DNA of 64,000 bases, from assembly GCF_010078235.1 (NCBI RefSeq), contig NZ_JAABOS010000007.1, positions 1-64,000 of the forward strand. Reading direction: 5' to 3'. The stretch comes from Cognatundibacterium crateris. Its GTDB lineage: Bacteria; Pseudomonadota; Gammaproteobacteria; Burkholderiales; Burkholderiaceae_D. The notes below the pieces were generated by a model. That model searched no databases. It was given only the letters and a program-made list of their open reading frames with translations, and had not been told where the DNA came from. Both the position numbers and the translations under genes were made by a program. Positions 22,649 to 63,128 of this stretch are shown one piece after another. Each line of letters begins with the position of its first letter. The first letter of the stretch is position 1.

Positions 22649-23656
22649 TCAAACCAGCAAATCGATATGCTGCATACTACCAACCTGACCATGCTCTCCC
22701 AGCCACAGACCAGTGGCGCCTAACTTGCCCGCCAGCTTTTGGTCCGGCGTCGTCAGCAGTTTTTCAGTTGCGACCTGACCGAGATATAAAGCCCCTACTC
22801 CCGCCTCCCGCAAACTCGTAAATTGCGACTTTCCTTGCGGACCGGAAGACAGTAAGCCCAACTCAGCAAACACAGGATCAGCAGCATCTATCCACTGATT
22901 ATGATCCGCATCAAGCTTAGCCAGTTCCGCGAAACCATCGCCAGTCGCCGGGCCAAATAACTGCGAACCCTGCCTGATCTCGTCCTCAGGATACTGACGA
23001 CGTGCCAAATATGCGCCGTTATTCAGCATAGGTATCGCTCTTTGCTGACCATCATTGAATAAATCCAGATTTAATTTTTGGCCATTCAGGCTGACCGAAT
23101 TTCCTGAAAAATTCAGCACCAGCGGATCTCGCATACCAGCTTCAGCACGTGTCCGGACTGTCCTGACCAACTCGGTTTCAGTCTGCAATGCAAAAGAAAA
23201 CTGGAATTGTATCGTCTGGTGATCTGCGGTCTGCACCTGACCGCTGGCTTCAAATTGCAAACTCGTCGTCTCCCGGATGGCAACCGTTTCTATCCGCTGA
23301 CGAACACCAGGGGAAGCCTGCGAGCCTTGACTGGAGCCGGAGTGTTGTGCTCCTACCGCCTGCATGGGCTGGAGCAAATTCACTTCCTGCCCAAACATTT
23401 CACGCAACAACGCAATCATGGTCTGCAAATGCGGGTCCAGCGCAGAACTGCTCAACGCTGCCGCGCCTGCTCCGCCTGCCTCAGCTTGCGCAAGTTGTTG
23501 AGCTGATTCGGAAATCTGAACCGTGGATGCGGCAAACGTCTGTTGACTTTGCGTAGCCTGCGCACTGAAGCTGGCACCGTTGCGCCCTACCACTACTTCT
23601 GTGCGACTGGAAGACTGGGTGGTGGCGAGCGCCACCTGGGAGGTGAGAATGTGCAT
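22649..23656 (-). CDS. Conserved-looking protein with an EF-hand-like loop
   Basis: The protein has 335 residues. The N-terminal part is Ser/Gln/Ala-rich, the middle is beta-rich, and near residues 270-285 there is a calcium-loop-like stretch, LDADHNQWIDAADPVF (Asp-x-Asp-x-Asn pattern). The C-terminus ends GLWLGEHGQVGSMQHIDLLV. No signal peptide is evident. I choose the second ATG of a tandem pair (23656), 6 bases after GGAG. The frame is open to a TTG at 23668. Function unknown. It converges with the solute-binding-like gene. Confidence 0.7.
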   Translation of the reverse strand: MHILTSQVALATTQSSSRTEVVVGRNGASFSAQATQSQQTFAASTVQISESAQQLAQAEAGGAGAAALSSSALDPHLQTMIALLREMFGQEVNLLQPMQAVGAQHSGSSQGSQASPGVRQRIETVAIRETTSLQFEASGQVQTADHQTIQFQFSFALQTETELVRTVRTRAEAGMRDPLVLNFSGNSVSLNGQKLNLDLFNDGQQRAIPMLNNGAYLARRQYPEDEIRQGSQLFGPATGDGFAELAKLDADHNQWIDAADPVFAELGLLSSGPQGKSQFTSLREAGVGALYLGQVATEKLLTTPDQKLAGKLGATGLWLGEHGQVGSMQHIDLLV

Positions 23657-23782
23657 CATAAGCTCCAAATGACCACCATGATCTGGAGTTACGGCAATAT
23701 TGGCGAAAACTATAAGGAAAACGAGGATATTTTAAAGAAACAGGATTATTGCAAAAAAATCAGCAATAAAATCAAGCTAAAA

Positions 23783-49578: not shown

Positions 49579-49974
49579 TCAGGCTGGTTTTCCGAGTTTT
49601 TCAAAAATCTTAGTTAACTTTTCATCCAGGGTCGCAGCAGTAAAAGGTTTCACTACATAACCATTTGCACCAGCCTGCGCTGCTGCAATAATATTTTCCT
49701 TCTTCGCCTCGGCAGTCACCATCAAGACGGGCAATTTGGATAAAGCCGGATCAGCACGAATATGCTGCAACATGGTCAAACCATCCATGTTAGGCATGTT
49801 CCAGTCAGAAATGACGAAGTCGAAATCGCCATTCTTTAATTTAGCCAGACCCATTGCGCCGTCTTCAGCCTCATCCACGTTGGAATAACCCAATTCTTTG
49901 AGCAAATTCCTGACGATACGTCGCATGGTAGAAAAGTCGTCGACAACTAAAAATTTGAGATTTTGGTCAGCCAT
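49579..49974 (-). CDS. cheY: Chemotaxis response regulator CheY
   Basis: The protein has 131 residues of E. coli CheY type. The acidic pocket is DD near 12-13 ([16 protein letters not shown]), the phosphoacceptor Asp is in [14 protein letters not shown], the conserved Thr/Ala is in [27 protein letters not shown] with Lys in VKPF. It controls flagellar rotation through FliM. It is the last gene of the operon, with a 103-base gap from cheB and a strong terminator after it. Confidence 0.96.
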
Positions 49975-50077
49975 GAATTACTCCAATATTTCTTTAAAGA
50001 TAGTTGTTAGTATTATCGGTCAAATTACAATTTCTGGGTGCCGAAATTGCAGAAAAGCATAAAAAACGTAGTGAGAA

Positions 50078-51151
50078 CTACACCCTTAATGCCCGACTGC
50101 CATGCGTTGCCAAGTATTGCAGAACTTTAGCAGGCAATTCATTCAGTGGTGCAACTTCATGTGTACCTCCGGCAGCGATTGCTTCTTTCGGCATACCAAA
50201 TACAACACAGCTCGCTTCATCCTGAGCAAAATTATAGGCACCTGCATTTTTCATTTCCAGCATGCCCGCTGCACCATCTTTGCCCATGCCGGTCAAAATA
50301 ACCCCGACCGCATTCTTACCAGCACAAGTCGCTGCTGAACGGAACAGCACATCAACCGAGGGACGGTGCCGATTGACAGGCTCGCCCGTATCGAGCTGAG
50401 TCACATAGTTTGCACCACTCCGTCCCAGCAACAGATGAGAATGACCAGGTGCAATATACGCATGGCCTGGTAATACACGTTCGCCACCACTGGCCTCAGC
50501 CACTGAGATCTTACACAAGCCATCAAGCCGTTTTGCAAAAGAACGGGTAAATCCCTCAGGCATATGCTGGGTAATTAGAATACCAGGGCAATCCGAAGGC
50601 ATCTGCACCAGGAAATTTTTAATTGCCTCAGTTCCGCCCGTCGATGCACCGATGATAATCAGCTTTTCACTGCTCGTCAGCGGATTACGCACTAACGGCA
50701 GACTTTCTTGTGCAACTTTAGCATGATCACTCGCTGCTGCTGCACGACGAATTCTGGCTTTCGACGCTATCCTGATTTTTTCAGTAATCAAATCAGCGTA
50801 TTCCCGCATACCACTCTGTATGGACAGCTTAGGCTTGGTCACAAAATCCACCGCACCCAACTCTAAGGCACGCATCGTTATTTCAGAACCACGCTCAGTC
50901 AGCGAAGACACCATAATGACAGGCATGGGACGCAAGCGCATCAGCCGTTCCAGAAAGTCCAGACCATCCATCTTGGGCATTTCCACATCCAGCGTCAGGA
51001 CATCAGGATTGGTCTGCTTAATGAGCTCCCTTGCAACCAGCGGATCAGGTGCCACGCCAACCACTTCCATGTCTGGCTGGCTACCGATAATTTCACTCAT
51101 TACGCTGCGAATCAGAGCGGAGTCGTCAACTATCAATACTTTTATTTTCAT
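50078..51151 (-). CDS. cheB: Chemotaxis methylesterase/glutamine deamidase CheB
   Basis: The protein has 357 residues. A receiver domain (phosphoacceptor Asp in [16 protein letters not shown]) is joined through a short linker to the methylesterase domain. The catalytic Ser is in [12 protein letters not shown], His in [18 protein letters not shown], and Asp in [15 protein letters not shown]. It lies downstream of cheD by 41 bases and demethylates receptors to give adaptation. Confidence 0.96.
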
Positions 51152-51192
51152 TCTTCAAACTCCACAACCACACATTTATCACTGCCATCATT

Positions 51193-51798
51193 TCAGAACA
51201 AATCAACCTCTCCACCAACTGAGGTGGTCTTGAGACGGCTGGCGTAATCCTGTTCACGTTTTCTCAATGTATCGTTATGCTCGACTTTCAGCTTTTTCAC
51301 AAGTACTTTGCCGGTACGTGGAAAAAAATATACTTTCCTAGGATAAATATCATTAAGATCTTCAGCAATCACCCGCATTCTCTCTGCGCGCAGGTAATCC
51401 AAAACGAATTTAGCATTCCGCTCACCAACATTGATTGCTGTAAAGCCGCGCAAAACATTACCACCGCCAAAGACCTTTGCCTCCATGTTTTCTCTTTTAG
51501 CACCGGCTTTCAGAAGCTCATTAATCAGCACTTCCATCGCATAGGTACCATAGCGCATAGAGGCCGACACCGGATTGTCGGCATCCCCCCCCGTATCAGG
51601 CAACATAAAGTGATTCATCCCACCCACGCCCGACACCCGGTCACGGATACACGCTGAGACACAGGAGCCCAACACAGTGACGATCAGCATATCCTTATTG
51701 GTGAAATAAAATTCACCCGGCAATATCTTGGCAGCATCACAATCAAATGTGCGGTCATAGTAGACATTGGTTGCAAAATGCTCTTCGCTCAAGCTCAT
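51193..51798 (-). CDS. cheD: Receptor deamidase CheD
   Basis: The protein has 201 residues. Catalytic Cys is in TVLGSCVSACIRDR and His in GVGGMNHFMLP, with KVFGGGNVL and NVGERNAKFVLDYL typical of CheD. It deamidates receptor Gln residues. It overlaps cheR by 4 bases. The C-terminus ends GGEVDLF, an acidic-hydrophobic tail also seen in the CheZ-like protein of this operon. Confidence 0.93.
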   Translation of the reverse strand: MSLSEEHFATNVYYDRTFDCDAAKILPGEFYFTNKDMLIVTVLGSCVSACIRDRVSGVGGMNHFMLPDTGGDADNPVSASMRYGTYAMEVLINELLKAGAKRENMEAKVFGGGNVLRGFTAINVGERNAKFVLDYLRAERMRVIAEDLNDIYPRKVYFFPRTGKVLVKKLKVEHNDTLRKREQDYASRLKTTSVGGEVDLF

Positions 51799-52682
51799 AA
51801 ACTACCTTTATGCAGGTGACTTACCGATGGCCGGCTGGCAGCCCTGGAATTTGCCAGCTCGTAAACTGTCTTTCCCTTCAACTTCAGCTCATCAGTAACG
51901 TATAAAAAGTTTTCTGAATGCCCTGCAAACAGCAAGGCATCCGACTTCATCAGCGGAGCAAATTTTTTAAGGATTTTCCCCTGAGTAGGCTTATCAAAGT
52001 AAATCATGACATTGCGACAGAAAATCGCGTCAAACTCACCGCTGACCGGCCAGCTATCTGCCAACAAGTTCAATTGCTTAAACGTGATGAGATCACGCAG
52101 TTCCTGCCTGACGCGAACCAGCCCCTCTTGCGCCCCTTTTCCCTTCAGAAAAAATTTCCTGACTCTTTCCTGCGACATTTTTTCAATCCGGTCAGCGTTA
52201 TAAACGCCTCTTGCTGCAGTATTGAGAACATTCGTATCAATATCAGTCGCGATAATTTGCGCTGGCGGACGCATAGTCCCAAATGCCTCACACAAAGTCA
52301 TTGCAATGGAATATGGCTCTTCACCGGTAGAACTGGCTGAACACCAGATACTGACTGGTGTCGCACACTTCTTAACGTGCTCAGCAAGTATAGGGAAATG
52401 ATGTTCCTCTCTGAAAAAAGAAGTCAAGTTAGTGGTCAATGCATTGGTAAACGCCTCCCACTCCTGACTATCGTGATCGCCCTCAAGCTTATTCAGATAT
52501 TCCGTGAATGAAGTCAGGCCTGTCGCCCGCAAGCGCCTTGCCAACCGGCTATACACCATCTCCTGCTTACTATCTGCCAGTGAAATACCAGCACGCTTAT
52601 AGATCAATTCACGTACCCGATCAAAATCCCGCGAATTGAAGTTAAACTCTTTCGAGGACTCTGATTTCACTCTGTCTGTCAT
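51795..52682 (-). CDS. cheR: Chemotaxis receptor methyltransferase CheR
   Basis: SAM-dependent methyltransferase, 295 residues. An N-terminal helical domain is followed by SIWCSASSTGEEPYSIAMTLCE (SAM motif), IIATDIDTNVLNTAARGVY and FDAIFCRNVMIYFDKPTQ. The beta-subdomain that binds receptor tails lies between. The neighbouring receptor carries a xWExF tail that can bind this subdomain. It overlaps cheD by 4 bases. Confidence 0.96.
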   Translation of the reverse strand: MTDRVKSESSKEFNFNSRDFDRVRELIYKRAGISLADSKQEMVYSRLARRLRATGLTSFTEYLNKLEGDHDSQEWEAFTNALTTNLTSFFREEHHFPILAEHVKKCATPVSIWCSASSTGEEPYSIAMTLCEAFGTMRPPAQIIATDIDTNVLNTAARGVYNADRIEKMSQERVRKFFLKGKGAQEGLVRVRQELRDLITFKQLNLLADSWPVSGEFDAIFCRNVMIYFDKPTQGKILKKFAPLMKSDALLFAGHSENFLYVTDELKLKGKTVYELANSRAASRPSVSHLHKGSL

Positions 52683-52716
52683 AGTTGCGCACCCAGGTAA
52701 TTAGTCAGGAGCAAAC

Positions 52717-54417
52717 TCAGAACTCCTCCCAGGAGTCATCGTCGGCACTATTTTTTGTTAGTTTTTTGGGTGAATTACTTTCTGCACTCACCTGAGGTAT
52801 CGCTTTTTTCGCCGGCGCCTGCACTTTTACTTCACGCACGGCAGGTCTGGCCGAAGCGCTCATGACATTGCCTGTATTTAACTTAAATACACTGACAGCC
52901 TGTGCGAGCGAAACCGACTGCTCTTCCATACTCTCAGCTGCGGCGGCAGCCTGCTCGACCAGAGCAGCATTTTGCTGGGTCATTTCATCCATCTGAGTAA
53001 TAGCAAGATTGACCTGCTCAATGCCGGAACTTTGTTCCTGGCTGGCAGCGGTAATTTCACTCATGATGTCAGCAACATGCTGAACGCTGGTCACAATCTC
53101 GTCCATCGTTTTTCCAGCTTCGTCGACCAGCTTACTACCCTGATCTACTTTATCGACCGAATCACCGATCAAAGACTTGATTTCCTTTGCAGCGCTGGCA
53201 CTGCGTTGCGCGAGATTTCTAACCTCAGCTGCAACAACCGCAAAACCACGCCCTTGTTCACCTGCACGTGCTGCTTCAACCGCAGCATTCAGTGCCAGAA
53301 TATTGGTCTGAAAAGCGATGCCGTCGATCACACCAATAATATCAACGATCTTACGTGAGCTATCCTTAATCGATCCCATGGTTTCGACCACCTGACCGAC
53401 TACTGCACCGCCTTTTACAGCAACATTCGTCGCAGACACAACCAGTTGATTAGCCTGGCGCGCATTGTCTGCATTCTGTTTCACCGTGCTGGTCAATTCC
53501 TCCATAGAAGAAGCAGTTTCTTCCAGTGAGCTAGCCTGGGATTCTGTACGCTGGGACAGATCGGCATTTCCTGAGGCAATTTCTTGTGCGGCCACAGTAA
53601 TCGTTTCGGTACCAGTCCTGACCTGTCCGACTGTGGCGGCCAGATTGTCATTCATATTTTTGAGTGCAATCAATAACTGCGCAACTTCGTCACTACCCTC
53701 AACTTCTATCGTACTCCGCAAATCTCCACTTGCGACAGTTTCAGCAAGCTGCAGCGACTCACTCAATGGCTTGGTAATACTTGCAGTTAGCATCCACGCA
53801 ACCAAAGCACCGAAAGCAACCGAAGCAATGAGTACGACAAACAGTAAGTACGAGAGTCTGGTTCCCGTGCGGGCTGCATTTTCAAATGCAGTTTGGGCAG
53901 CTACTGTCTGCAGATCAACCAGTTTATTTATCTCCTGTATCGATTTGCTACTGAGTGGCTCAAGTACCGAAGTGATGACCTTGACCGCGCCTTCACCATT
54001 GAAGGCCAGAGCCTGTCCGACCGCGTCTTTGAATGGTTGTTCGATTTCCTTATCTATTCTCGCTACCTCAGCCAGAATTTTCTTTTCATCCTCAGACAAG
54101 CCCAGGCTGACCAGCTTTACTTTTGATTCTTCATACAGTTTTCTTTGCGCCTTGACCTTGCCTTCTTCTTTCTGCATTTCGCCGACATCCGATTGAATGC
54201 CAATGTTTCGCATGGCGATCCCACCCTCATATACCGAGGTTTTCATCGCATTCGCCAATAATTGCTTTTGGTTTGCAACGCTCAAACTATCGGCCATCTC
54301 TTTACGACTTGATGCATTCATCGCATTAACGATCAGCATTACCACTGTGACAGCACCGAGAATCAGAGCGAAACCCGCTCCCAAACGTGTGCCAATTTTT
54401 AGATTACGCAAATTCAT
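52717..54417 (-). CDS. Methyl-accepting chemotaxis protein with four-helix-bundle sensor
   Basis: The protein has 566 residues. TM1 is about 10-31, the periplasmic 4HB_MCP domain about 32-190, TM2 about 191-212, and HAMP and the signalling domain follow. The conserved hairpin tip is [37 protein letters not shown], and methylation regions contain [20 protein letters not shown]. The C-terminal ~55 residues form a linker ending DDSWEEF, a CheR/CheB tether pentapeptide of the xWExF type. It is located between cheW and cheR, so it is likely the operon's own Tar/Tsr-like receptor. Ligand unknown. Confidence 0.94.
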
Positions 54418-54465: not shown

Positions 54466-54984
54466 TTAACTGGCGTGATCGACCAAGCCCATTTCAGGAC
54501 TGGACATCAGCTTATCGATCTCAACCAGGATCAGCATACGGTCTTCCAACGTTCCGAGGCCTATCAAAAAGTCAGTACTGAATGTGGTTCCCATTTCTGG
54601 TGCTGGCCTGACCTGCCCTGGCATCAGCGTTGTTACATCCGACACGCTGTCGACTACCATACCAACAATTTTTCCTTCGATATTCAGGATGATCACTACA
54701 GTAAACTGGTCATAGGATGGCGTACCAAGATTAAATTTGATACGCATATCCACCACAGGAACAATGTTGCCTCGCAAATTGATCACGCCTTTCAAAAAAT
54801 CCGGCGCATTGGCGATCCTGGTCACGGCCTCATAGCCCCGAATTTCCTGCACCTTCAGGATATCTATCCCATACTCCTCATTTCCCAAAGTAAAAGCCAA
54901 AAACTCATGTCCGGCGACATCGACAGCACCGCCTTCTTCAGAAGTATTTGCATCGTTTTGAAATTGAGTTGCTTGAGTCATCAT
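54466..54984 (-). CDS. cheW: Chemotaxis coupling protein CheW
   Basis: The protein has 172 residues, a single CheW domain. [56 protein letters not shown] is typical, followed by [23 protein letters not shown] and the late [13 protein letters not shown]. It couples receptors to CheA. The N-terminal ~20 residues are a short extension. It is 34 bases downstream of cheA. Confidence 0.97.
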
Positions 54985-55018: not shown

Positions 55019-57067
55019 TTATTTACCAGAGCGGAGTAACGCAGGCACATCCAGAATCAAGGCAACGCCACCATCTCCAAGAATGGTGGCGCCAGAAATG
55101 CCTGGCACTTTCTTATAGTTCGATTCGATATTTTTTACGACGACCTGTTGCTGCCCTACGAGATCATCGACAAATAAGGCTGCTTTTTTACCATCAACCT
55201 CAACAATCACGACTATGCCGTCAGAGGGCTCTAAAAATTTTGGTTCAAGCGCAAACATCTTATGCAGTGCAACCAATTGCAGGTATTCATCCCTGACCTT
55301 AATCACTTTCCCCTTACCATTGACTTCTTTCACATCGTCCGGTGCAGGCTGCAGAGACTCGACCACATAACCAAGTGGAAGTATGTAAATTTCTTCACCC
55401 AACTTGATCGACATGCCGTCGAGAATCGCGAGTGTGAGAGGCAAGGAAATCGTTATCGTGGTTCCAAACCCGCGCGCAGAGCGTATATCCACCACCCCAC
55501 CCATCGCAGCGATATTACGTTTGACCACATCCATTCCGACGCCGCGACCCGAAACGTCAGTTACTACATCAGCAGTAGAAAAGCCCGGCGCAAAAATCAA
55601 TTGCCATACTTCAGCATCAGTCATACTGTCGCTGACAGACAATCCATTTTGCTTTGCCTTCGCGAGAATTTTCTCTCTGTGTAAACCGCCGCCATCATCA
55701 CTGACCTCAATGACGATGTTGCCGCCTTGATGCACCGCTGATAAAGACAAGCGGCCGGTTTCGGTTTTACCGGCACTGACACGGGCTGCCGGCATTTCAA
55801 TGCCATGATCGATACTGTTTCTGACCAGGTGAGTAAGCGGATCAACAATACGCTCGATTAAGCCTTTATCCAGCTCTGTCGAAGCCCCATAGGTAACAAA
55901 TTCAACTTTCTTACCCAGCTTATTGGCCAGGTCACGCACCATGCGCGGGAAGCGCGAGAACACATAATCCATCGGCATCATGCGGATAGACATAACAGCT
56001 TCTTGCAAGTCACGTGTGTTACGCGTCAGGTGGGCAACACTGCTGAGCAGCCGTTCGTTCTCAATCGGATCCAGAAGCTGGGTGCGCTGTTCCAGCATCG
56101 CCTGGGTAATCACCAGCTCGCCGATCAGATTGATCAGTTGATCAACCTTTTCTATCCCAACCCTGATCGTGGTGGATTCCTGGCTGGCAGTTGGTTTTTC
56201 AATTTCTTTTTTGACGGCAGCTTTCTTCTCTGCACCCGAACTGGTCACCGCAGGTAGGGCCGGCGCCACCGGTGCTGCGACACTTGCGGCTGCCGCTGCT
56301 TCACCTTCCAGCGGCGGGAACATTGCGTCCAATGGTTCAAAAAAACCGTAGCCCAGTTCGTCTTCACTGAGCTGCACCTCAGCCGCAGGTCCTTCGACCG
56401 CCTCTTCAGATATTTTCAGACAATCCGGATTTAAGATGAAAGAGCAGATAGAGATAATATCGTCTTTACCTTCATTGGTTTGCAAATGCAAGACCATGCC
56501 ATCCCGGACTTCAGACTCACGACTGATTTTTCCCAATAAACCCAACTCGGACATCAGCGCATTCGCATCAGCGTCACTGACGGCAGGTAACTCTATCCTG
56601 AATGCGGAATGGAAAGTGGTATATTGATGTTCGTCTTCTACTAAGCTAAGTGCTGGTTTAGGTGGTGGTGCTGCAGCATCGTCCTGCGACAAAGACTGCA
56701 ACAGCATACGGACATCGGCTACCGCGTCCTGATCAACCGGAGAGCCCAAACGATGCCCATCAAGCTGCATCTTGAGCACATCTTTTGCCGACAAAAAGGC
56801 ATCCACATGCTCGGCTGTTAAGGCCATTTCGCCTTTGCGGATTTTATCTAACAGGGACTCAAGGACATGAGTCACTTCGGTCATGTCGTTCAAACCAAAG
56901 GTGGATGCCCCACCCTTAATGGAATGCGCAGCCCGGAAAATGGCATTGAGATCTTCCGGATCTGGCGAAGCTACATCGACCGCAAGCAGCAATTTTTCCT
57001 TCTCGGCCAAAAGCTCTTCTGCTTCATCAAAGAAGACCTGGAAAAACTGACTCATGTCAATCGTCAT
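55019..57067 (-). CDS. cheA: Chemotaxis histidine kinase CheA
   Basis: The protein has 682 residues. HPt with phospho-His48 in FRAAHSIKGGASTFGL, P2 CheY-binding domain at about 165-250 (FRIELPAVSDADANALMSELG), a Pro/Ala linker (about 280-300), dimerisation, HATPase (N box HLVRNSIDHGIE, G1 SDDGGGLH, F box FAPGFST, G2 GRGVGMDVV) and a C-terminal CheW-like domain. All kinase motifs are intact. This is the main kinase, unlike the P2-lacking cheA paired with cheZ elsewhere in the window. Confidence 0.97.
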   Translation of the reverse strand: MTIDMSQFFQVFFDEAEELLAEKEKLLLAVDVASPDPEDLNAIFRAAHSIKGGASTFGLNDMTEVTHVLESLLDKIRKGEMALTAEHVDAFLSAKDVLKMQLDGHRLGSPVDQDAVADVRMLLQSLSQDDAAAPPPKPALSLVEDEHQYTTFHSAFRIELPAVSDADANALMSELGLLGKISRESEVRDGMVLHLQTNEGKDDIISICSFILNPDCLKISEEAVEGPAAEVQLSEDELGYGFFEPLDAMFPPLEGEAAAAASVAAPVAPALPAVTSSGAEKKAAVKKEIEKPTASQESTTIRVGIEKVDQLINLIGELVITQAMLEQRTQLLDPIENERLLSSVAHLTRNTRDLQEAVMSIRMMPMDYVFSRFPRMVRDLANKLGKKVEFVTYGASTELDKGLIERIVDPLTHLVRNSIDHGIEMPAARVSAGKTETGRLSLSAVHQGGNIVIEVSDDGGGLHREKILAKAKQNGLSVSDSMTDAEVWQLIFAPGFSTADVVTDVSGRGVGMDVVKRNIAAMGGVVDIRSARGFGTTITISLPLTLAILDGMSIKLGEEIYILPLGYVVESLQPAPDDVKEVNGKGKVIKVRDEYLQLVALHKMFALEPKFLEPSDGIVVIVEVDGKKAALFVDDLVGQQQVVVKNIESNYKKVPGISGATILGDGGVALILDVPALLRSGK

Positions 57068-57114: not shown

Positions 57115-57480
57115 TTAGCCAATCACTTTTTTCACAACTTCTGTTAGCTTCTGCGGGTCGAAAGGCTTGACCAGCCAGCCATTCGCACCGGCGGCCCGAC
57201 CCTTTGCTTTCATATCATCACTCGACTCGGTTGTGAGCATCAGAATAGGCACTCTTTGATATGTAGCAAGTCCACGTAAGGATTTAATCAAAGTCAGACC
57301 GTCCATGCGCGGCATATTCTGATCAGTCAGCACCAGATCAACGACTTGATTTCTGGCTTTTTCCAGCCCGTCCTGTCCATCTACAGCTTCAATCACCTGA
57401 TAGCCAGCAGCCTTGAGGCTGAATGCAACCATTTGTCTTAACGATCCTGAATCGTCAACAGCTAAAATTGTCTTGGCCAT
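57115..57480 (-). CDS. CheY-type response regulator upstream of cheA
   Basis: Single receiver domain of 121 residues. Acidic pair is in LAVDDSGSLRQMV, phosphoacceptor Asp in LVLTDQNMPRMDGL, Thr in MLTTESSDDMKAKGRAAGANGWLVKPF, with Lys in VKPF. It starts at the ATG at 57480 (MAKTILAVDD), ten residues inside the open frame. The operon therefore has two CheY proteins, one at each end of the che block. This one is adjacent to the CheZ-like gene and to cheA, which suggests a dedicated role or phosphate sink. Confidence 0.9.
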   Translation of the reverse strand: MAKTILAVDDSGSLRQMVAFSLKAAGYQVIEAVDGQDGLEKARNQVVDLVLTDQNMPRMDGLTLIKSLRGLATYQRVPILMLTTESSDDMKAKGRAAGANGWLVKPFDPQKLTEVVKKVIG

Positions 57481-57531
57481 AATTACTCCATCTACGAATG
57501 AAAGGCCCAATAGCTTGGGTTTCGCACAAAA

Positions 57532-58089
57532 TTAAAATAATTCAATATCACCGCTATCCAGATGCTTCTGGTGAACTGCCTTCCTTAACAAACTCTGCAA
57601 ATCTGCGCTCTGCTTATCAAGTCTTTGCGTTGTTTCCTTGAGCAGAGATTCCAGATCTTCATTCTCAGACTCAGTGGAAATATCATCACCAACCACACCC
57701 AGGGTCACCAATACTTCACGCAATCCCTCACAGCGCTGCATCGTTCTGGAAATAAGCTGACTGGTCAGGTCCTGAAACTGCAGGCAGGTCACAGCGGAAT
57801 TAATATGTGAGGCAATTTCACTCTGTATAAGCTTGAGACGGTCAACACTTTCATTGGTCACCGCACCTGAGTTAATGATCAGATTGATTTCATCCTGCTC
57901 TTTGATTACGGCAGAATGCAGAGACATGAAACTGATACCCAGTTTCTCTATTGCCTCACCCAGTAACAAAGCCGTCTGAGCGAGGTCCGTTTCCACCTCG
58001 GATAAATGCGCACTGCTGTGATCAGAGACACCTGACAGCAGTTGTTTTACCTGGGGACCGAGCATTTTCTCTTTGGACATCTTGAGCAT
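57532..58089 (-). CDS. CheZ-like protein in the motility operon
   Basis: The protein has 185 residues and is predicted helical throughout. The segment LQFQDLTSQLISRTMQRCEGL (about 103-123) keeps the CheZ catalytic D-x-x-x-Q (Asp107, Gln111) within the F-Q-D-L-T-x-Q context. The C-terminus ends DSGDIELF, like the acidic-hydrophobic CheY-binding tail of CheZ. Overall it is shorter than CheZ and lacks obvious similarity elsewhere. It lies between motB and a cheY. It is probably a second phosphatase for CheY-type proteins, but catalysis is inferred. Start could be 58089 or 58080. Confidence 0.78.
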   Translation of the reverse strand: MLKMSKEKMLGPQVKQLLSGVSDHSSAHLSEVETDLAQTALLLGEAIEKLGISFMSLHSAVIKEQDEINLIINSGAVTNESVDRLKLIQSEIASHINSAVTCLQFQDLTSQLISRTMQRCEGLREVLVTLGVVGDDISTESENEDLESLLKETTQRLDKQSADLQSLLRKAVHQKHLDSGDIELF

Positions 58090-58129: not shown

Positions 58130-59059
58130 TTACTTTGTACCTTTTACTGTCACTTCTGCTTTTGAATCTGATTGACTGGTTACTTCGACCGAGCCGCCAT
58201 CCTGAGAAGCCGACTCTTCTGCTTTTTTATTCATCACGATGATGCTGATTCTTCGATTAACCGGATTGTAGGCATCCTGCTTATCAAACAACACCGATGA
58301 GGACAGCCCAACTACGCGCAGTACCTTAGACTCGTCCATACCACCGTAAATCAGTTCGCGGCGCGATGCATTAGCACGATCCGCTGACAATTCCCAGTTG
58401 CTATACCCCTTCTCACCTAAGCCATAGGGAGTTGCGTCGGTATGACCGGATAAGCTGATGCGATTTGGCACCTCATTCAGCGCCTTACCAATCTCATGCA
58501 AAATTTCACGTGTATAGGGTTGCAGATCTGCCCTGGCTAACGCAAACATGGGTCGGTTCTGCTCGTCCACCATTTGAATGCGCAAACCTTCGGTCGTAAT
58601 GTCCAACAGCAGTTGTTTTTTATACTGCTTCAAGGTTGGATTCGATTCAATCACTGCCTCAATTTTTCCTTTGAGATTCTTCAGCCGCTCCGCCTCTTCT
58701 TTTGCGAGCGCGGCTTCCGCTGCCTGCAGGTTATATGTTTTTTTAGATGATTCAATATCACCCTTGCGGTTCTGGCCCTCTCTCAAGCTGAGATCCTTAC
58801 CGCCACCTTTAATCACGCTGGAGCTATCACCGCTTCCATCTCCGCCAGCCATCGCGACCTTCAATGGGGTCTGAAAATATTCAGCAATACCCTGCAGGTT
58901 TCCCTTTGCCGTTGAACCCAGCAACCACATCAACAGAAAAAAAGCCATCATTGCCGTTACAAAATCGGCGTAGGCGATTTTCCATGCACCGCCATGATGA
59001 CCACCGCCAGCTTTTTTAATACGCTTGACGATAATTGGCCTGAGTTCCTCATTTGCCAT
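58130..59059 (-). CDS. motB: Flagellar stator protein MotB
   Basis: The protein has 309 residues. The single TM and plug region begins KIAYADFVTAMMAFFLLMWLLGST, with the proton-channel Asp in YADFVTAMM. A C-terminal OmpA-like peptidoglycan-binding domain has RISLSGHTDATPYGLGEKGYSNWELSADRANASRRELI. It partners with MotA (24 bases upstream) as the proton-driven stator. The C-terminal tail after the OmpA domain is Ser/Glu-rich. Confidence 0.97.
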   Translation of the reverse strand: MANEELRPIIVKRIKKAGGGHHGGAWKIAYADFVTAMMAFFLLMWLLGSTAKGNLQGIAEYFQTPLKVAMAGGDGSGDSSSVIKGGGKDLSLREGQNRKGDIESSKKTYNLQAAEAALAKEEAERLKNLKGKIEAVIESNPTLKQYKKQLLLDITTEGLRIQMVDEQNRPMFALARADLQPYTREILHEIGKALNEVPNRISLSGHTDATPYGLGEKGYSNWELSADRANASRRELIYGGMDESKVLRVVGLSSSVLFDKQDAYNPVNRRISIIVMNKKAEESASQDGGSVEVTSQSDSKAEVTVKGTK

Positions 59060-59083: not shown

Positions 59084-59944
59084 TTATTTTGATTTAGACT
59101 GCTTAATATGTTCTTCCAGCTCACTAAAGGTTGGTCTTTCGGTTGAATACAGCACTTTACGACCAAATTCGACAGCCAAAGCTGGCGCATACCCATTCAG
59201 ACTGGCAAGTAAAGTGACCTTAATGCACTGAAAAGTTTTCGAGGCCTCATCATTTTGCTGCTCGATCAAACTAGCCAGTGGGCCAACGAAACCATACGCA
59301 AGCAAAATACCTAGAAATGTACCAACCAAAGCTTTAGCAATCAGAATCCCCAATTCAGCCGGAGGAATGCCAACCGACTCCATTGTATGCACCACCCCCA
59401 TGACCGCAGCCACAATACCGAATGCCGGCAAGCCATCACCTAACTTCGCGATAAAGTGGGCCGGCACAGCAGCTTCATGATGATGCGTTTCGAGTTCGTT
59501 ATCCATCAGATTCTCGATCTGAAATGCATCCATATTTCCGGATACCATCAAGCGCAGATAATCACAGATAAACTCCATCAGATGATGATCATGAACGATC
59601 AAACCATACTTGCTGAACAAAGGACTGTCGTCAGGCTTCTCAATATCACCTTCGATTGACATCAAGCCTTCTTTTCTCACCTTAGTCAGCACGTCAAACA
59701 TCATGGTCATCAATTCCATGTAAAGTGCCTTGGTGTATTTTGAGCCTTTGAATACGGTGGGAATGGCTTTCAATGACGCCTTCAAACTCTTGGCATTATT
59801 CCCAACCAGCGCTGCACCAACCGCAGCCCCACCAATCATCAACAATTCAAGCGGCTGAAACAATACGGCCACATGGCCGCCTGACATAACGAAGCCACCA
59901 AACACCGACCCCATAACAACTAAATAGCCAACGATGACTAACAC
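59084..59944 (-). CDS. motA: Flagellar stator protein MotA
   Basis: The protein has 286 residues with four TM helices: two near the N-terminus (VIVGYLVVMGSVFGGFVMSGG and the following segment) and two near 175-215 (GDGLPAFGIVAAVMGVVHTMESVG and GILIAKALVGTFLGILLAYGFVGP). A large cytoplasmic loop that contacts FliG lies between. It is followed by motB. The upstream methyltransferase gene separates it from flhC. Confidence 0.97.
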   Translation of the reverse strand: MLVIVGYLVVMGSVFGGFVMSGGHVAVLFQPLELLMIGGAAVGAALVGNNAKSLKASLKAIPTVFKGSKYTKALYMELMTMMFDVLTKVRKEGLMSIEGDIEKPDDSPLFSKYGLIVHDHHLMEFICDYLRLMVSGNMDAFQIENLMDNELETHHHEAAVPAHFIAKLGDGLPAFGIVAAVMGVVHTMESVGIPPAELGILIAKALVGTFLGILLAYGFVGPLASLIEQQNDEASKTFQCIKVTLLASLNGYAPALAVEFGRKVLYSTERPTFSELEEHIKQSKSK

Positions 59945-60089: not shown

Positions 60090-60899
60090 TCACATTTTCC
60101 AGCCGTATAAATAAATTTCCTCGTATCCACACTGTATTGCAAAATCCGGCTTTCTTCCATGAACAACAAACTCATAACTGATAAATATTGTTCCAGGCAA
60201 CATTTCCTGCTGCACTTTTTCCCACAAACCCGACATCACCACCGGCGACAAATAGGCATACACCACATCAAATGCAGCCAAGTCGATTTCTTCATAATTG
60301 CCAAAGTGGATGCGAACATTTGCCTCGTGCCGCAACTTCGCCCTACACCAGCTGACAATAAAGGGAAACAAAGCCAGCTCAATTCCGGCATATCTATATC
60401 GCGGAAATTTTTCAGCCAAACCCAAAAGCACCCCACCAAAACCAGACCCAACGTCCAGCACGGACAGTGATTTTTCAGGACTCAATTGTTGCGCCAGCAT
60501 TTCTACTGCGCGATGAGGTGAAGGATAGTAAGGCACGCGACTAAACAAAGTCGCGCCGCAGATGGCAAACAAAAGCAAAAAGAGAATAAGATAGAGCTGA
60601 GGATTCAGCTGTAAAGAGGTAGCCAACCAAACGAGCCAGGGAAACAACGCCTCAATGACGCACCACCACCAGTCCAAGCGCAGAATATAGGCAGCCAGCG
60701 CCGCTGCGCAAGAAAGCGCAATAACAAAATAAAGAGGATAAATCGGGACATTCAGCGTGCGATGTATCAGGCTCACTGAAATCAGCACAAGAAAGAAACA
60801 AATTAATTGAACGAACAGTGCAGCCAGCGCCACCGGAATCAGGGGCTGACGATCCGGGGTGAGCTTGAACAAGTCAGATAAAAAACGGAACTTAAGCAA
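60090..60899 (-). CDS. Membrane-anchored class I SAM-dependent methyltransferase
   Basis: The protein has 269 residues. The N-terminal half has about four hydrophobic segments (about 20-42, 50-70, 74-95 and 100-112). A class I methyltransferase domain follows at about 125-265: motif I LSVLDVGSGFGGVLLGLAE, the ribose-binding YAGIELALFPFIV, and FDVVYAYLSPVVM. Membrane tethering is unusual for this fold. The substrate is unknown. It sits 18 bases after flhC and 145 bases before motA in the flagellar operon. Candidate targets are a flagellar or chemotaxis membrane protein, a lipid, or a quinone-like molecule. Confidence 0.85.
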   Translation of the reverse strand: MLKFRFLSDLFKLTPDRQPLIPVALAALFVQLICFFLVLISVSLIHRTLNVPIYPLYFVIALSCAAALAAYILRLDWWWCVIEALFPWLVWLATSLQLNPQLYLILFLLLFAICGATLFSRVPYYPSPHRAVEMLAQQLSPEKSLSVLDVGSGFGGVLLGLAEKFPRYRYAGIELALFPFIVSWCRAKLRHEANVRIHFGNYEEIDLAAFDVVYAYLSPVVMSGLWEKVQQEMLPGTIFISYEFVVHGRKPDFAIQCGYEEIYLYGWKM

Positions 60900-60917: not shown

Positions 60918-61466
60918 TCAGGCAACCATTGCCATCTCCGCATCTTTCGCTTTTTTCGTTTTGCCAGCGCGGGATGGGACATGACACAGGCCACAGCGAT
61001 ACTGATCATGTAAATCAAGTGAGTGTGCAACGAAATGACCACCACATTCACTGCAGCGGGCAAATGTTAACATTTTTCCCTCAAAAAATCGAACCAAAGT
61101 CCAGGCGCGCGTCAGCGATAACAAAGCATCATCAGGATTCAGGCAGCCGACCTGCTCCAAGTAAAGCTTGTAGGACTTAACAACAGCCTCGATGCCGGTG
61201 ATTTCAGCGTGTTCATTGAGGTACTTATAGATATTCATGAACAGCGATGAATGAATATTCGGCTGCCAGGTCACGAACCAGTCGGTCGAAAAAGGCAGCA
61301 TTCCCTTTGGAGGAGAAACGCCCTTCAACTCCTTGTAGATTTTCAATAAGCGTTCGCGAGACAGAGAAGTTTCCGACTCAAGCAATTGTAAGCGCGCACC
61401 CAACTTAACCAGTTCTATTGCCAACTGAATCTCATTAGCTTCATTTACAACACTTTTGATCGCCAT
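60918..61466 (-). CDS. flhC: Flagellar master regulator subunit FlhC
   Basis: The protein has 182 residues. Zn-binding Cys pairs are in CSECGGHFVAHSLDLHDQYRCGLC, with the N-terminal IQLAIELVKLGARLQLLESETSLSRERLLKIYKELKG typical of FlhC. With FlhD it activates class II flagellar genes. The start is the ATG at 61466 (MAIKSVVNEAN), preferred over one eight codons upstream. It starts 32 bases after flhD. Confidence 0.96.
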   Translation of the reverse strand: MAIKSVVNEANEIQLAIELVKLGARLQLLESETSLSRERLLKIYKELKGVSPPKGMLPFSTDWFVTWQPNIHSSLFMNIYKYLNEHAEITGIEAVVKSYKLYLEQVGCLNPDDALLSLTRAWTLVRFFEGKMLTFARCSECGGHFVAHSLDLHDQYRCGLCHVPSRAGKTKKAKDAEMAMVA

Positions 61467-61498
61467 GTTCGCCTCACTCTTTATATTCAAAAAAGAAA

Positions 61499-61816
61499 TT
61501 AATGAATTTCTTCAACTGGCTGACCAGCCATCAGGATGGCTGCATGGGAGTGTGCCAAAGCACGTTCTTTGTTGTAATTGGTCAACATGCAGAGAATCGC
61601 GCTATCTTCGAAACGGAAGCGGGCAAGCATCATATTGGAGCCTGCCAACTTCAGTATCTGAGAGTTATTCAAACCCTCAATCAGATCTGCAATTTCTTTA
61701 CCTATTCCCAGACGGAAAATTGCAGTCGCTTTATCAGCACGTATCATTTGCTGAGCAAGCATCAAGTAGCTTAAGTTTGCATCGCGAATTTCCGCCATCA
61801 TATCGTTCTGTGTCAT
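61499..61816 (-). CDS. flhD: Flagellar master regulator subunit FlhD
   Basis: The protein has 105 residues, with DANLSYLMLAQQMIRADKATAIFRLGIGKEIADLIEGL typical of FlhD. The start is the ATG at 61816 (MTQNDMMAEIRDA) with a GGAGGG ribosome-binding site. The frame is open 52 codons upstream to 61972, but that part has no family resemblance. First gene of the operon. Two sigma-28-type promoters lie 270-380 bases upstream. Confidence 0.95.
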   Translation of the reverse strand: MTQNDMMAEIRDANLSYLMLAQQMIRADKATAIFRLGIGKEIADLIEGLNNSQILKLAGSNMMLARFRFEDSAILCMLTNYNKERALAHSHAAILMAGQPVEEIH

Positions 61817-61971
61817 TTCCACACCCTCCAGTCCATTTTTCAAGACAAGTTCATTGCCGTTGAGACACATTGTGCTTGGACGAAAAAAACCGAGGTATAG
61901 GCAAAAGTAGATATTTACGGACGGAATACAACGAAAGCGCGCATAGGAGATTAACCTACACACGTAAGACA

Positions 61972-61997
61972 TTCTCTATTTTGTTTAAAACAGAGAA
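61972..61997 (-). promoter_or_regulatory. Hairpin in the flhD mRNA leader
   Basis: Plus-strand arms TTCTCTATTTT (61972-61982) and AAAACAGAGAA (61987-61997), loop GTTT. In minus-strand RNA the one mismatch becomes a G-U pair, so all 11 positions can pair. It lies about 155 bases before the flhD start, inside the leader predicted from the sigma-28-type promoters. Confidence 0.45.
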
Positions 61998-62098
61998 AAA
62001 TTGAATTTTTTAACCAACAGCAAGAAAACAAAAAATAATCTTAATAAAACAAAGACTTATCTTAAATAAGGCAGCTTTTTAGTTTTCTCTCATTACTA

Positions 62099-62125
62099 TT
62101 AACGGCACTAAAAACGAGAACTTTA
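62099..62125 (-). promoter_or_regulatory. Sigma-28 (FliA)-type promoter P1 for flhDC
   Basis: Minus-strand -35 TAAAGTTC (62125-62118), 11-base spacer, -10 GCCGTTAA (62106-62099). The FliA consensus is TAAAGTTT-N11-GCCGATAA. Fourteen of 16 positions match. The predicted transcript begins near 62092 and leaves a leader of about 275 bases. Confidence 0.75.
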
Positions 62126-62168
62126 GGGTTAATCGCAAAAATTTTTAAATATTTTTTCCTACAGTTTG

Positions 62169-62195
62169 ATAACGGCAGGGAATAAAAAAACTTTA
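62169..62195 (-). promoter_or_regulatory. Sigma-28 (FliA)-type promoter P2 for flhDC
   Basis: Minus-strand -35 TAAAGTTT (62195-62188), 11-base spacer, -10 GCCGTTAT (62176-62169). It is exactly 70 bp from P1 and also matches the FliA consensus at 14 of 16 positions. The surrounding 30 bp (CCCTAAAGTT ... TGCCGTTA) are the same in both copies. Confidence 0.75.
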
Positions 62196-62250
62196 GGGCA
62201 ACTGTCGTTTTTTTGATGGGAATTTTGCGAAAGTGATGGAATTTGGTTCA

Positions 62251-62295
62251 AAAATAAAAAAATCGCAACTGAACTTAGCTCAGTTGCAATTTTTA
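62251..62295. terminator. Terminator after dnaQ
   Basis: GCAACTGA (62265-62272), loop ACTTAGC, TCAGTTGC (62280-62287). On the minus strand it is followed by GATTTTTTTATTTT. It separates the dnaQ transcript from the flhDC promoters. Confidence 0.9.
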
Positions 62296-62414
62296 AATAT
62301 GGCCATTTGAAGCTTTTTTCCTGAGGCACTTAAAAGGTCTTGGGATACTTCCATATCACTTACGGCGACATTATCCCGTCCATAAAGGCGAAAAGCTAAT
62401 GGTACAGACGGCCT

Positions 62415-63128
62415 TTATTGCAAACGCCACAAACAATCCTGCTTACCTTGCTTATCTAAACCTGCCAACAGTTTTTCATGCTCATCCAATTCAGTCGCGT
62501 CAGCTGCAATGCAAACCATGTCGTCAATCGCAAGTGCTTCGACTGGCAAATCAACAACAACTTGCACAACCTCTTCTTCTATGTCGATCGCAAAGCTATT
62601 CTGCCCGCGCGACATTGCCAAAAAAACATCGGCCAGCAACTCCGCATCCAGCAAAGCGCCGTGCAGTTTTCGATGTGAGTTCGAAATTTCATAACGGTCG
62701 CACAAAGCATCGAGGGAGTTTCGCTTTCCTGGATGTAACTCCTTGGCCTGAACCAGGGTATCGGTGACATGGCTGACATGATCGGCAAAATTTCCCAGAC
62801 CGATTCTGGCAAACTCTGCATTCAGAAATGCTACGTCAAACGGCGCATTATGAATAACGACTTCTGCACCACGAATGTATTCACAAAACTCTTGCGAAAT
62901 CTCTGCAAATTTGGGCTTATCCGATAAAAACTCAGTCGTGAGTCCATGCACTGCGAGCGCACCCTCTTCTGAATCGCGCTCAGGATTAATGTACTGGTGG
63001 AAATTATTACCGGTAAGTTTGCGATTAATTAATTCAACGCAACCAATCTCAATGATACGGTTGCCATCACGCGGACTAAGGCCGGTGGTTTCCGTATCAA
63101 GGACAATTTGCCTTAATTGTTGTTCCAT
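62415..63128 (-). CDS. dnaQ: DNA polymerase III epsilon subunit (proofreading exonuclease)
   Basis: The protein has 237 residues. The DEDDh exonuclease motifs are IVLDTETTGLSPRDGNRIIEIG (ExoI), VIHNAPFDVAFLNAEFARIG (ExoII) and LHGALLDAELLADVFLAM (ExoIII). A C-terminal tail of about 50 residues, which in the family contacts the polymerase alpha subunit, is present. The start at 63128 (MEQQLRQIVLDTETTG) overlaps the 3' end of tilS by 16 bases, so the two are probably co-transcribed and coupled. Confidence 0.96.
   Translation of the reverse strand: MEQQLRQIVLDTETTGLSPRDGNRIIEIGCVELINRKLTGNNFHQYINPERDSEEGALAVHGLTTEFLSDKPKFAEISQEFCEYIRGAEVVIHNAPFDVAFLNAEFARIGLGNFADHVSHVTDTLVQAKELHPGKRNSLDALCDRYEISNSHRKLHGALLDAELLADVFLAMSRGQNSFAIDIEEEVVQVVVDLPVEALAIDDMVCIAADATELDEHEKLLAGLDKQGKQDCLWRLQ

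Follow-up and report, generated by a model that had tools for sequence, protein, structure and literature searches.

The question raised by this locus was whether the flagellar master operon, flhDC, can itself be a target of the late flagellar sigma factor, sigma-28 (FliA). In E. coli and Salmonella, the textbook flagellar cascade runs one way, with FlhDC at the top and FliA below it. The window, a 64,000-nucleotide stretch of the Cognatundibacterium crateris genome (contig NZ_JAABOS010000007.1, positions 1 to 64,000), contains two FliA-type sequences upstream of flhD, and a sequence-only reading had proposed that the master operon may be FliA-driven.

Sites were scored over 14 bases (TAAAGTT plus GCCGWTA, where W allows either A or T in the -10 element). 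The distal candidate promoter (62195..62169, minus strand) reads TAAAGTTT-ttttattccct-GCCGTTAT and the proximal candidate (62125..62099, minus strand) reads TAAAGTTC-tcgtttttagt-GCCGTTAA. Both scored 14/14, with a TAAAGTT -35, a GCCGATAA-like -10 and an 11-base spacer (in 8+8 notation; in the 7+7 scoring the pattern is TAAAGTT-N12-GCCGWTA). Their start-to-start distance is 70 bp and both point into flhD. The sequence-only reading was thus confirmed as to the two sites, their spacer length, strand and orientation, and the flanking bases it described as common to both include the CCC directly before each TAAAGTT. Scanning the window with up to three mismatches gave 5 matches against 3.75 expected, so that loose matches in the window are meaningless; the only matches with 0 mismatches were the two flhD sites. 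Between 62,400 and 44,001, the coding strand had no further site of at least 11/14 with the same spacer. In the whole genome (4.3 Mb), three sites matched with 0 mismatches, the two before flhD and one at flgM. At up to two mismatches there was no enrichment, with 52 matches against 124 for the mirrored pattern, and weak genome matches are therefore uninformative. When CCC was added (CCCTAAAGTT-N12-GHCGWWA), perfect matches in the genome were confined to the two flhD sites, while up to two mismatches gave 6 places (13 for the mirrored pattern), one of them before fliC. A FliA-like sequence with two mismatches to this extended pattern lies at 23689-23717 of the window (minus strand), 21 bp before a 339-aa ORF (22649-23668) without a Pfam match.

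The genes downstream of the sites, all on the minus strand, are flhD (61499..61816; PF05247, 147.9 bits), flhC (60918..61466; PF05280, 296 bits), a methyltransferase-like gene (60090..60899; PF13649 at 26.2 bits, with a cut-off of 27), motA (59084..59944; PF20560 and PF01618), motB (58130..59059; PF13677 and PF00691), a 185-aa gene without a Pfam match (57532-58089), a cheY-like gene (57115-57510), cheA (55019..57067; Pfam search), cheW (54466-54984) and, at 49579..54417, an MCP gene (PF00015) with cheR, cheD, cheB and cheY, whose names were assigned by reading translations. Pfam matches and translations thereby bore out the description of an flhDC operon that includes motAB and che genes. Upstream of the promoters lies a dnaQ-like gene (62415-63128; PF00929), and terminator scoring placed a hairpin between it and the promoters (62258..62294, minus strand). 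ORFs of about 265 aa occupy the flhC-motA interval in several family loci, as the methyltransferase-like gene does in the window, and ORFs with similar starts occur at the position of the 185-aa gene in other genera.

The genome encodes one protein above the FliA family cut-off. It aligned over nearly its full length with the solved structure 6pmi (247 bits), which we take to be E. coli FliA, and its region 4.2, the DNA-reading helix, is nearly identical to that of the solved protein. FlgM (PF04316) is also encoded. The third perfect site (C40:259948), reading TAAAGTTT-N11-GCCGATAA, lies before flgM and a flgN-like gene, and flgMN is a textbook FliA target. Across the family, 29/30 flgM loci had a site of at least 12/14 when 150-300 bp upstream of the domain were searched on both strands. 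At Undibacterium fliC (loci L146 and L255-L282), the FliA-like matches were weaker (10-12/14, without a shuffle control), and their distances from the ATG were nearly fixed: about -117 in 29/29 loci, about -200 in 27/29 and about -53 in 13/29. With two or three weak sites at fliC as well, a tandem arrangement may be a general tendency of Undibacterium. None of 27 MCP loci in the own genome, searched 1,500 bp either side of the domain, which may miss some gene starts, exceeded 11/14. The search of late-gene promoters suggested by the sequence-only reading therefore yielded a canonical site at flgM, weak ones at fliC and at most 11/14 at MCP genes, and by this consensus the strongest FliA matches in the genome are those before flhD and flgM.

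For comparison across genomes, flhD loci were collected from the same genus, from the family and from other families of the order. The genus was treated as Undibacterium, since the FlhD sequences of the window and of U. rugosum are identical and the next matches were from Undibacterium. All 30 same-genus loci had two or three matches of at least 11/14, with a distal site that was weaker or had a 12-base spacer in some of them. At a threshold of 12/14, at least one site was found in 56/57 of loci L009-L065 and at least two in 48/57; for loci L066-L118 (Sapientia, Massilia, Duganella, Rugamonas, Pseudoduganella, Janthinobacterium, others and some Undibacterium MAGs) the corresponding counts were 52/53 and 48/53. 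The named and unnamed locus sets have genomes in common, and loci of one genus are not independent. Counts were also made by genus. At the same threshold before flhD, 21/32 family genera had at least two sites, 5/32 had one and 6/32 had none, a genus being counted as having two if at least one of its loci reached this number. These 32 genera were sampled from 37 with flhD (g33, g35, g45, g54 and g67 were left out); in one of the six site-less genera only 189 bp upstream could be searched (L183), and L190, L191 and L193, which have no sites, were taken as second flhD copies and omitted from the tally. The comparison across Oxalobacteraceae that the sequence-only reading had proposed thus found the arrangement recurring in 21 of the sampled genera. 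In other families of the order, eight of nine loci lacked the pair and one had it.

Control counts were made at 13/14 or better. Over all sets, 241 sites in 162 flhD loci compared with 1 on the opposite strand, 2 for the mirrored pattern and about 0.1 in shuffled sequence. The same-genus loci contributed 55 sites in 30 loci (0 opposite, 0 mirrored, 0.0 per shuffle set), the named loci 137 sites in 80 loci (0, 0 and 0.05, in the same order), and the further genera and families 49 sites in 52 loci (1, 2 and 0.05). Eight of 60 loci had no located flhD start; these are absent from the control counts and were scanned by coordinate for the genus tally. Chance is excluded because sites of at least 13/14 are conserved and the controls are nearly empty. 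A coincidental resemblance in AT-rich intergenic DNA, which would agree with the lack of genome excess over the mirror image at two mismatches, has a negligible probability against a position, strand and consensus kept in 26/32 sampled genera (at least one site) with such controls.

In 103 loci, the pair closest to flhD was spaced by 63 to 132 bp, with 70 bp in 8 of these, and both the spacer sequences and the DNA between the sites varied among loci. The 70-bp distance in the window is thus as had been described, and no significance attaches to its exact value. The further suggestion of an integer number of helical turns failed, as a distance of 70 bp corresponds to 6.67 turns of 10.5 bp each, and other loci have other distances. 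Helical phasing was rejected for the whole set (37 distinct spacing values; resultant lengths of 0.22 and 0.17 for periods of 10.5 and 10.0 bp, respectively). Within groups of related loci the resultants were 0.58, 0.51 and 0.23, values that may be explained by shared descent.

Sequences above the -35 element were compared in 199 dereplicated flhD sites and 29 flgM sites. The three C residues before TAAAGTT were present at 81, 90 and 95% of flhD sites, and an AT block (AAAAA..TT.AAAWWWWTTT) lay 12-31 bp above; at flgM sites, the sole trend was towards C in the final position (66%). The distal subsite of UP elements has an AAAWWTWTTTT-like consensus about 20 bp above the -35. In its best register (-21), the mean score for this subsite was 9.92/11 at the nearest flhD sites versus 4.45 at the 29 flgM sites. 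In the window, CCC and an AT-rich block in UP-element register lie above the proximal promoter (62126..62156, minus strand; 10/11 to the distal-subsite consensus), and there is no full block above the distal site. AT-rich upstream sequence raises the activity of the hag, fliD and motA promoters of B. subtilis, but in the transcriptome these three genes were not reduced when the alpha-CTD was lost (PMC4495994, in excerpt). The flhD sites resemble these promoters in having AT-rich DNA upstream of a flagellar-sigma-type promoter; the difference is that here the block, a putative activating element, belongs to a proteobacterial master operon (B. subtilis side as excerpted from PMC4495994).

The flhD leader, about 280-293 nt long, contains a second set of conserved elements. 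An alignment of 30 leaders showed the palindrome TGTAGGA-N5-TCCTACR, followed some 60 bp further down by NGCCTAT, and also CACAATGTRTCTCACTGGCAAC. In the window (minus strand), the palindrome corresponds to a hairpin at 61938..61964 (core TGTAGG-N7-CCTATG at 61942-61960) with a terminator-like score, and the leader alignment further marked GCCTATACC at 61894..61902, a candidate class I -10, and a CACAATGTGTCTCAACGGCAA block before flhD at 61854..61874. Most of the family loci printed have a palindrome-like element and AAATAC..GCCTAT about as far from flhD as here, and the palindrome also occurs outside the family, in some loci of the order that lack FliA sites. No consensus sigma-70 site was found on the minus strand of 61780-62420. 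The conserved proximal block may be an older class I control region, and because it recurs in loci without FliA sites, FliA may add to the class I promoter, not replace it. The proposal of a FliA-driven master operon accordingly stands as to the FliA-type sites and their orientation, and is incomplete as to FliA taking the place of class I control, since there is this separate conserved block.

Part of the leader may act as RNA. The leader folded slightly better than shuffled sequences (z -2.06), and the region contained 3 terminator-like hairpins against 0.5 in shuffles. Searching 61,400-62,500 against Rfam gave 8 matches at E of 1 or less, none near the gathering score, and RNAalifold returned no consensus structure for 45 non-Undibacterium leaders. 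When the hairpin was placed by hand, one pair covaried strongly (60/69 paired; shuffled mean 33.7, highest 45). This pair was seen in Duganella-type loci, and the other pairs gave little or nothing above shuffles. The conserved palindrome may be an RNA hairpin instead of a promoter element, and its terminator-like score in the window argues that transcripts from the FliA sites would not pass it freely. The palindrome was also tried as the mark of a regulon and rejected, with 2 genome places at up to one mismatch, below control and neither at flhD.

Loci were also scanned downstream of flhC (105 of 110 loci). In genus g51, all 10 genomes lacked an flhD site of at least 12/14, and all 10 had an 11-12/14 site about 1.9-2.05 kb below the flhD start, downstream of flhC; in the one genome with ORFs read, this site lies 140 bp before the motA ORF. 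Among loci with flhD sites, 6/87 also had a site of at least 12/14 in that stretch. Genus g51, a single lineage, fits the view that the operon would need a FliA promoter somewhere before motA. Genus g29 had no flhD site, and the two stretches searched for a site in another place gave no FliA match of 11/14. General relocation of the promoter between families was considered and rejected: six other-family stretches without flhD sites had no site of at least 12/14 before or after flhD, so that a history of a moved promoter is limited to the g51 case.

Considered together, the sites are probably sigma-28 (FliA) promoters that would transcribe the whole flhDC-(methyltransferase-like)-motAB-che operon and close a feedback loop. 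In Undibacterium and many of its relatives, late-sigma promoters at the head of the master operon thus point to a cascade that, unlike the usual one-way order, would return to its own start. In the mechanism proposed, the first task of the FliA sites would be late (class III) expression of the motor and chemotaxis genes, with the proximal promoter made strong by its UP-type AT block, and the conserved block nearer flhD would be the class I promoter that starts the cascade. From this class I start, FlhDC would be made and would activate the class II genes, presumably including fliA; after completion of the hook, FlgM would be exported, and the FliA set free would transcribe flhDC-motAB-che. The last step at this locus would join late mot/che timing to the feeding of FlhDC, a hook-gated positive feedback, provided that transcripts read through the leader hairpin and that flhD is translated from them. 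In favour of this reading count the perfect consensus and rarity of the sites, the single FliA with its conserved region 4.2, the canonical sites at flgM, the conservation against near-empty controls, the CCC and UP-like block, the lack of another site of at least 11/14 along the operon, and genus g51. Against it count the terminator-like leader hairpin and the slightly stable leader fold, the six genera without a site before flhD, g29 among them, the eight other-family loci without the pair, the fact that g51 is one lineage, the weak matches at fliC, where a strong target would be expected, and the MCP loci. The early steps of this scheme are taken from E. coli and Salmonella (PMC9387321 and PMC4173784, both in excerpt). 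A more far-reaching version is put forward tentatively, as somewhat less than an even bet: FliA, in place of some upstream regulator, would be the main positive input to the master operon in much of the family, the class I promoter would only ignite it, and two or three UP-boosted sigma-28 promoters, the strongest FliA matches in the genome, would hold FlhDC, motor and chemotaxis expression on after the hook, as a committed, possibly bistable switch gated by assembly.

Real FliA promoters could instead serve motAB-che only, with the leader hairpin blocking translation of flhD or a change in its level, so that only the tail of the operon would be class III, with no real feedback on FlhDC. This is unlikely, though it is the alternative that deserves most weight: it agrees with the long leader and its conserved palindrome or hairpin, with the FliA-like site that g51 has before motA and not before flhD, and with the statement, in an excerpt of PMC4173784, that Salmonella FliA is inefficiently translated from its own class 3 transcript. 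A motA-proximal site would suffice for this purpose, however, and sites are kept before flhD in most sampled genera, where flhD is the first gene. It is improbable that the sites mainly make a short leader RNA ending at the 61938-61964 hairpin (a small RNA or attenuated transcript), with flhDC read conditionally. The terminator-like score of that hairpin, the excess of such hairpins over shuffles and the FliA-dependent UTR-derived small RNAs known in E. coli (PMC10578931, in excerpt) would suit such an RNA; the T-run in the window is weak (CTTTCGTTGT) and absent from the Duganella-type loci printed, and the leaders gave neither a consensus fold nor an Rfam match at gathering score.

Binding by a factor other than FliA, for example a regulator reading CCCTAAAGTT, with the FliA likeness secondary, is more doubtful still. 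Such a factor would explain why the conserved CCC and AT block are absent from the flgM FliA sites, but both halves and the 11-base spacer length are kept exactly while the spacer sequence varies, and flgM has the same two halves. Transcription of the whole operon from FliA promoters remains the preferred reading.

In enterohaemorrhagic E. coli, FliA reportedly controls flhDC (Clarke and Sperandio, 2005, is said to describe this). The likeness, as far as the title goes, is a reported action of FliA on the transcription of flhDC; here, by comparison, the sites are tandem, conserved in the family and head a fused flhDC-mot-che operon. The motAB-cheAW genes of E. coli are driven by a FliA promoter that lies within flhC (PMC4183435, in excerpt). 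According to the same excerpt, the resemblance is a FliA promoter near flhDC that gives class III expression of motAB and che genes, but the E. coli promoter lies downstream of flhD, which it cannot transcribe, whereas here two sites lie before flhD. Salmonella has a positive feedback of FliA and FliZ, acting through FliZ and YdiV on FlhDC (PMC4173784, in excerpt). It resembles the loop proposed here in being FliA-dependent, in raising FlhDC activity and in being tied to hook completion, and differs in its route through FliZ and YdiV, while here the loop would act directly on flhDC transcription (Salmonella side as given in that excerpt).

FliA promoters, UP elements and an influence of FliA on flhDC (the last from a title) are thus known singly. 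Among the matches listed, which cover open-licence literature and leave most subscription papers outside, none described FliA-type promoters upstream of flhDC for Oxalobacteraceae, which is weak evidence of novelty. Relative to those matches, what appears new is the tandem, family-wide placement of class III promoters with a UP-like block before a fused flhDC-mot-che operon. If the preferred reading is true, flagellar tiers can be folded into each other, the top operon being a late FliA target; a hook-gated commitment to motility is predicted; and a mot-che operon joined to flhDC would gain late control from the promoters at its front. A MotB-like gene lies beside fliA (L154:937-1698, minus strand), and the genome may therefore contain a second stator pair.
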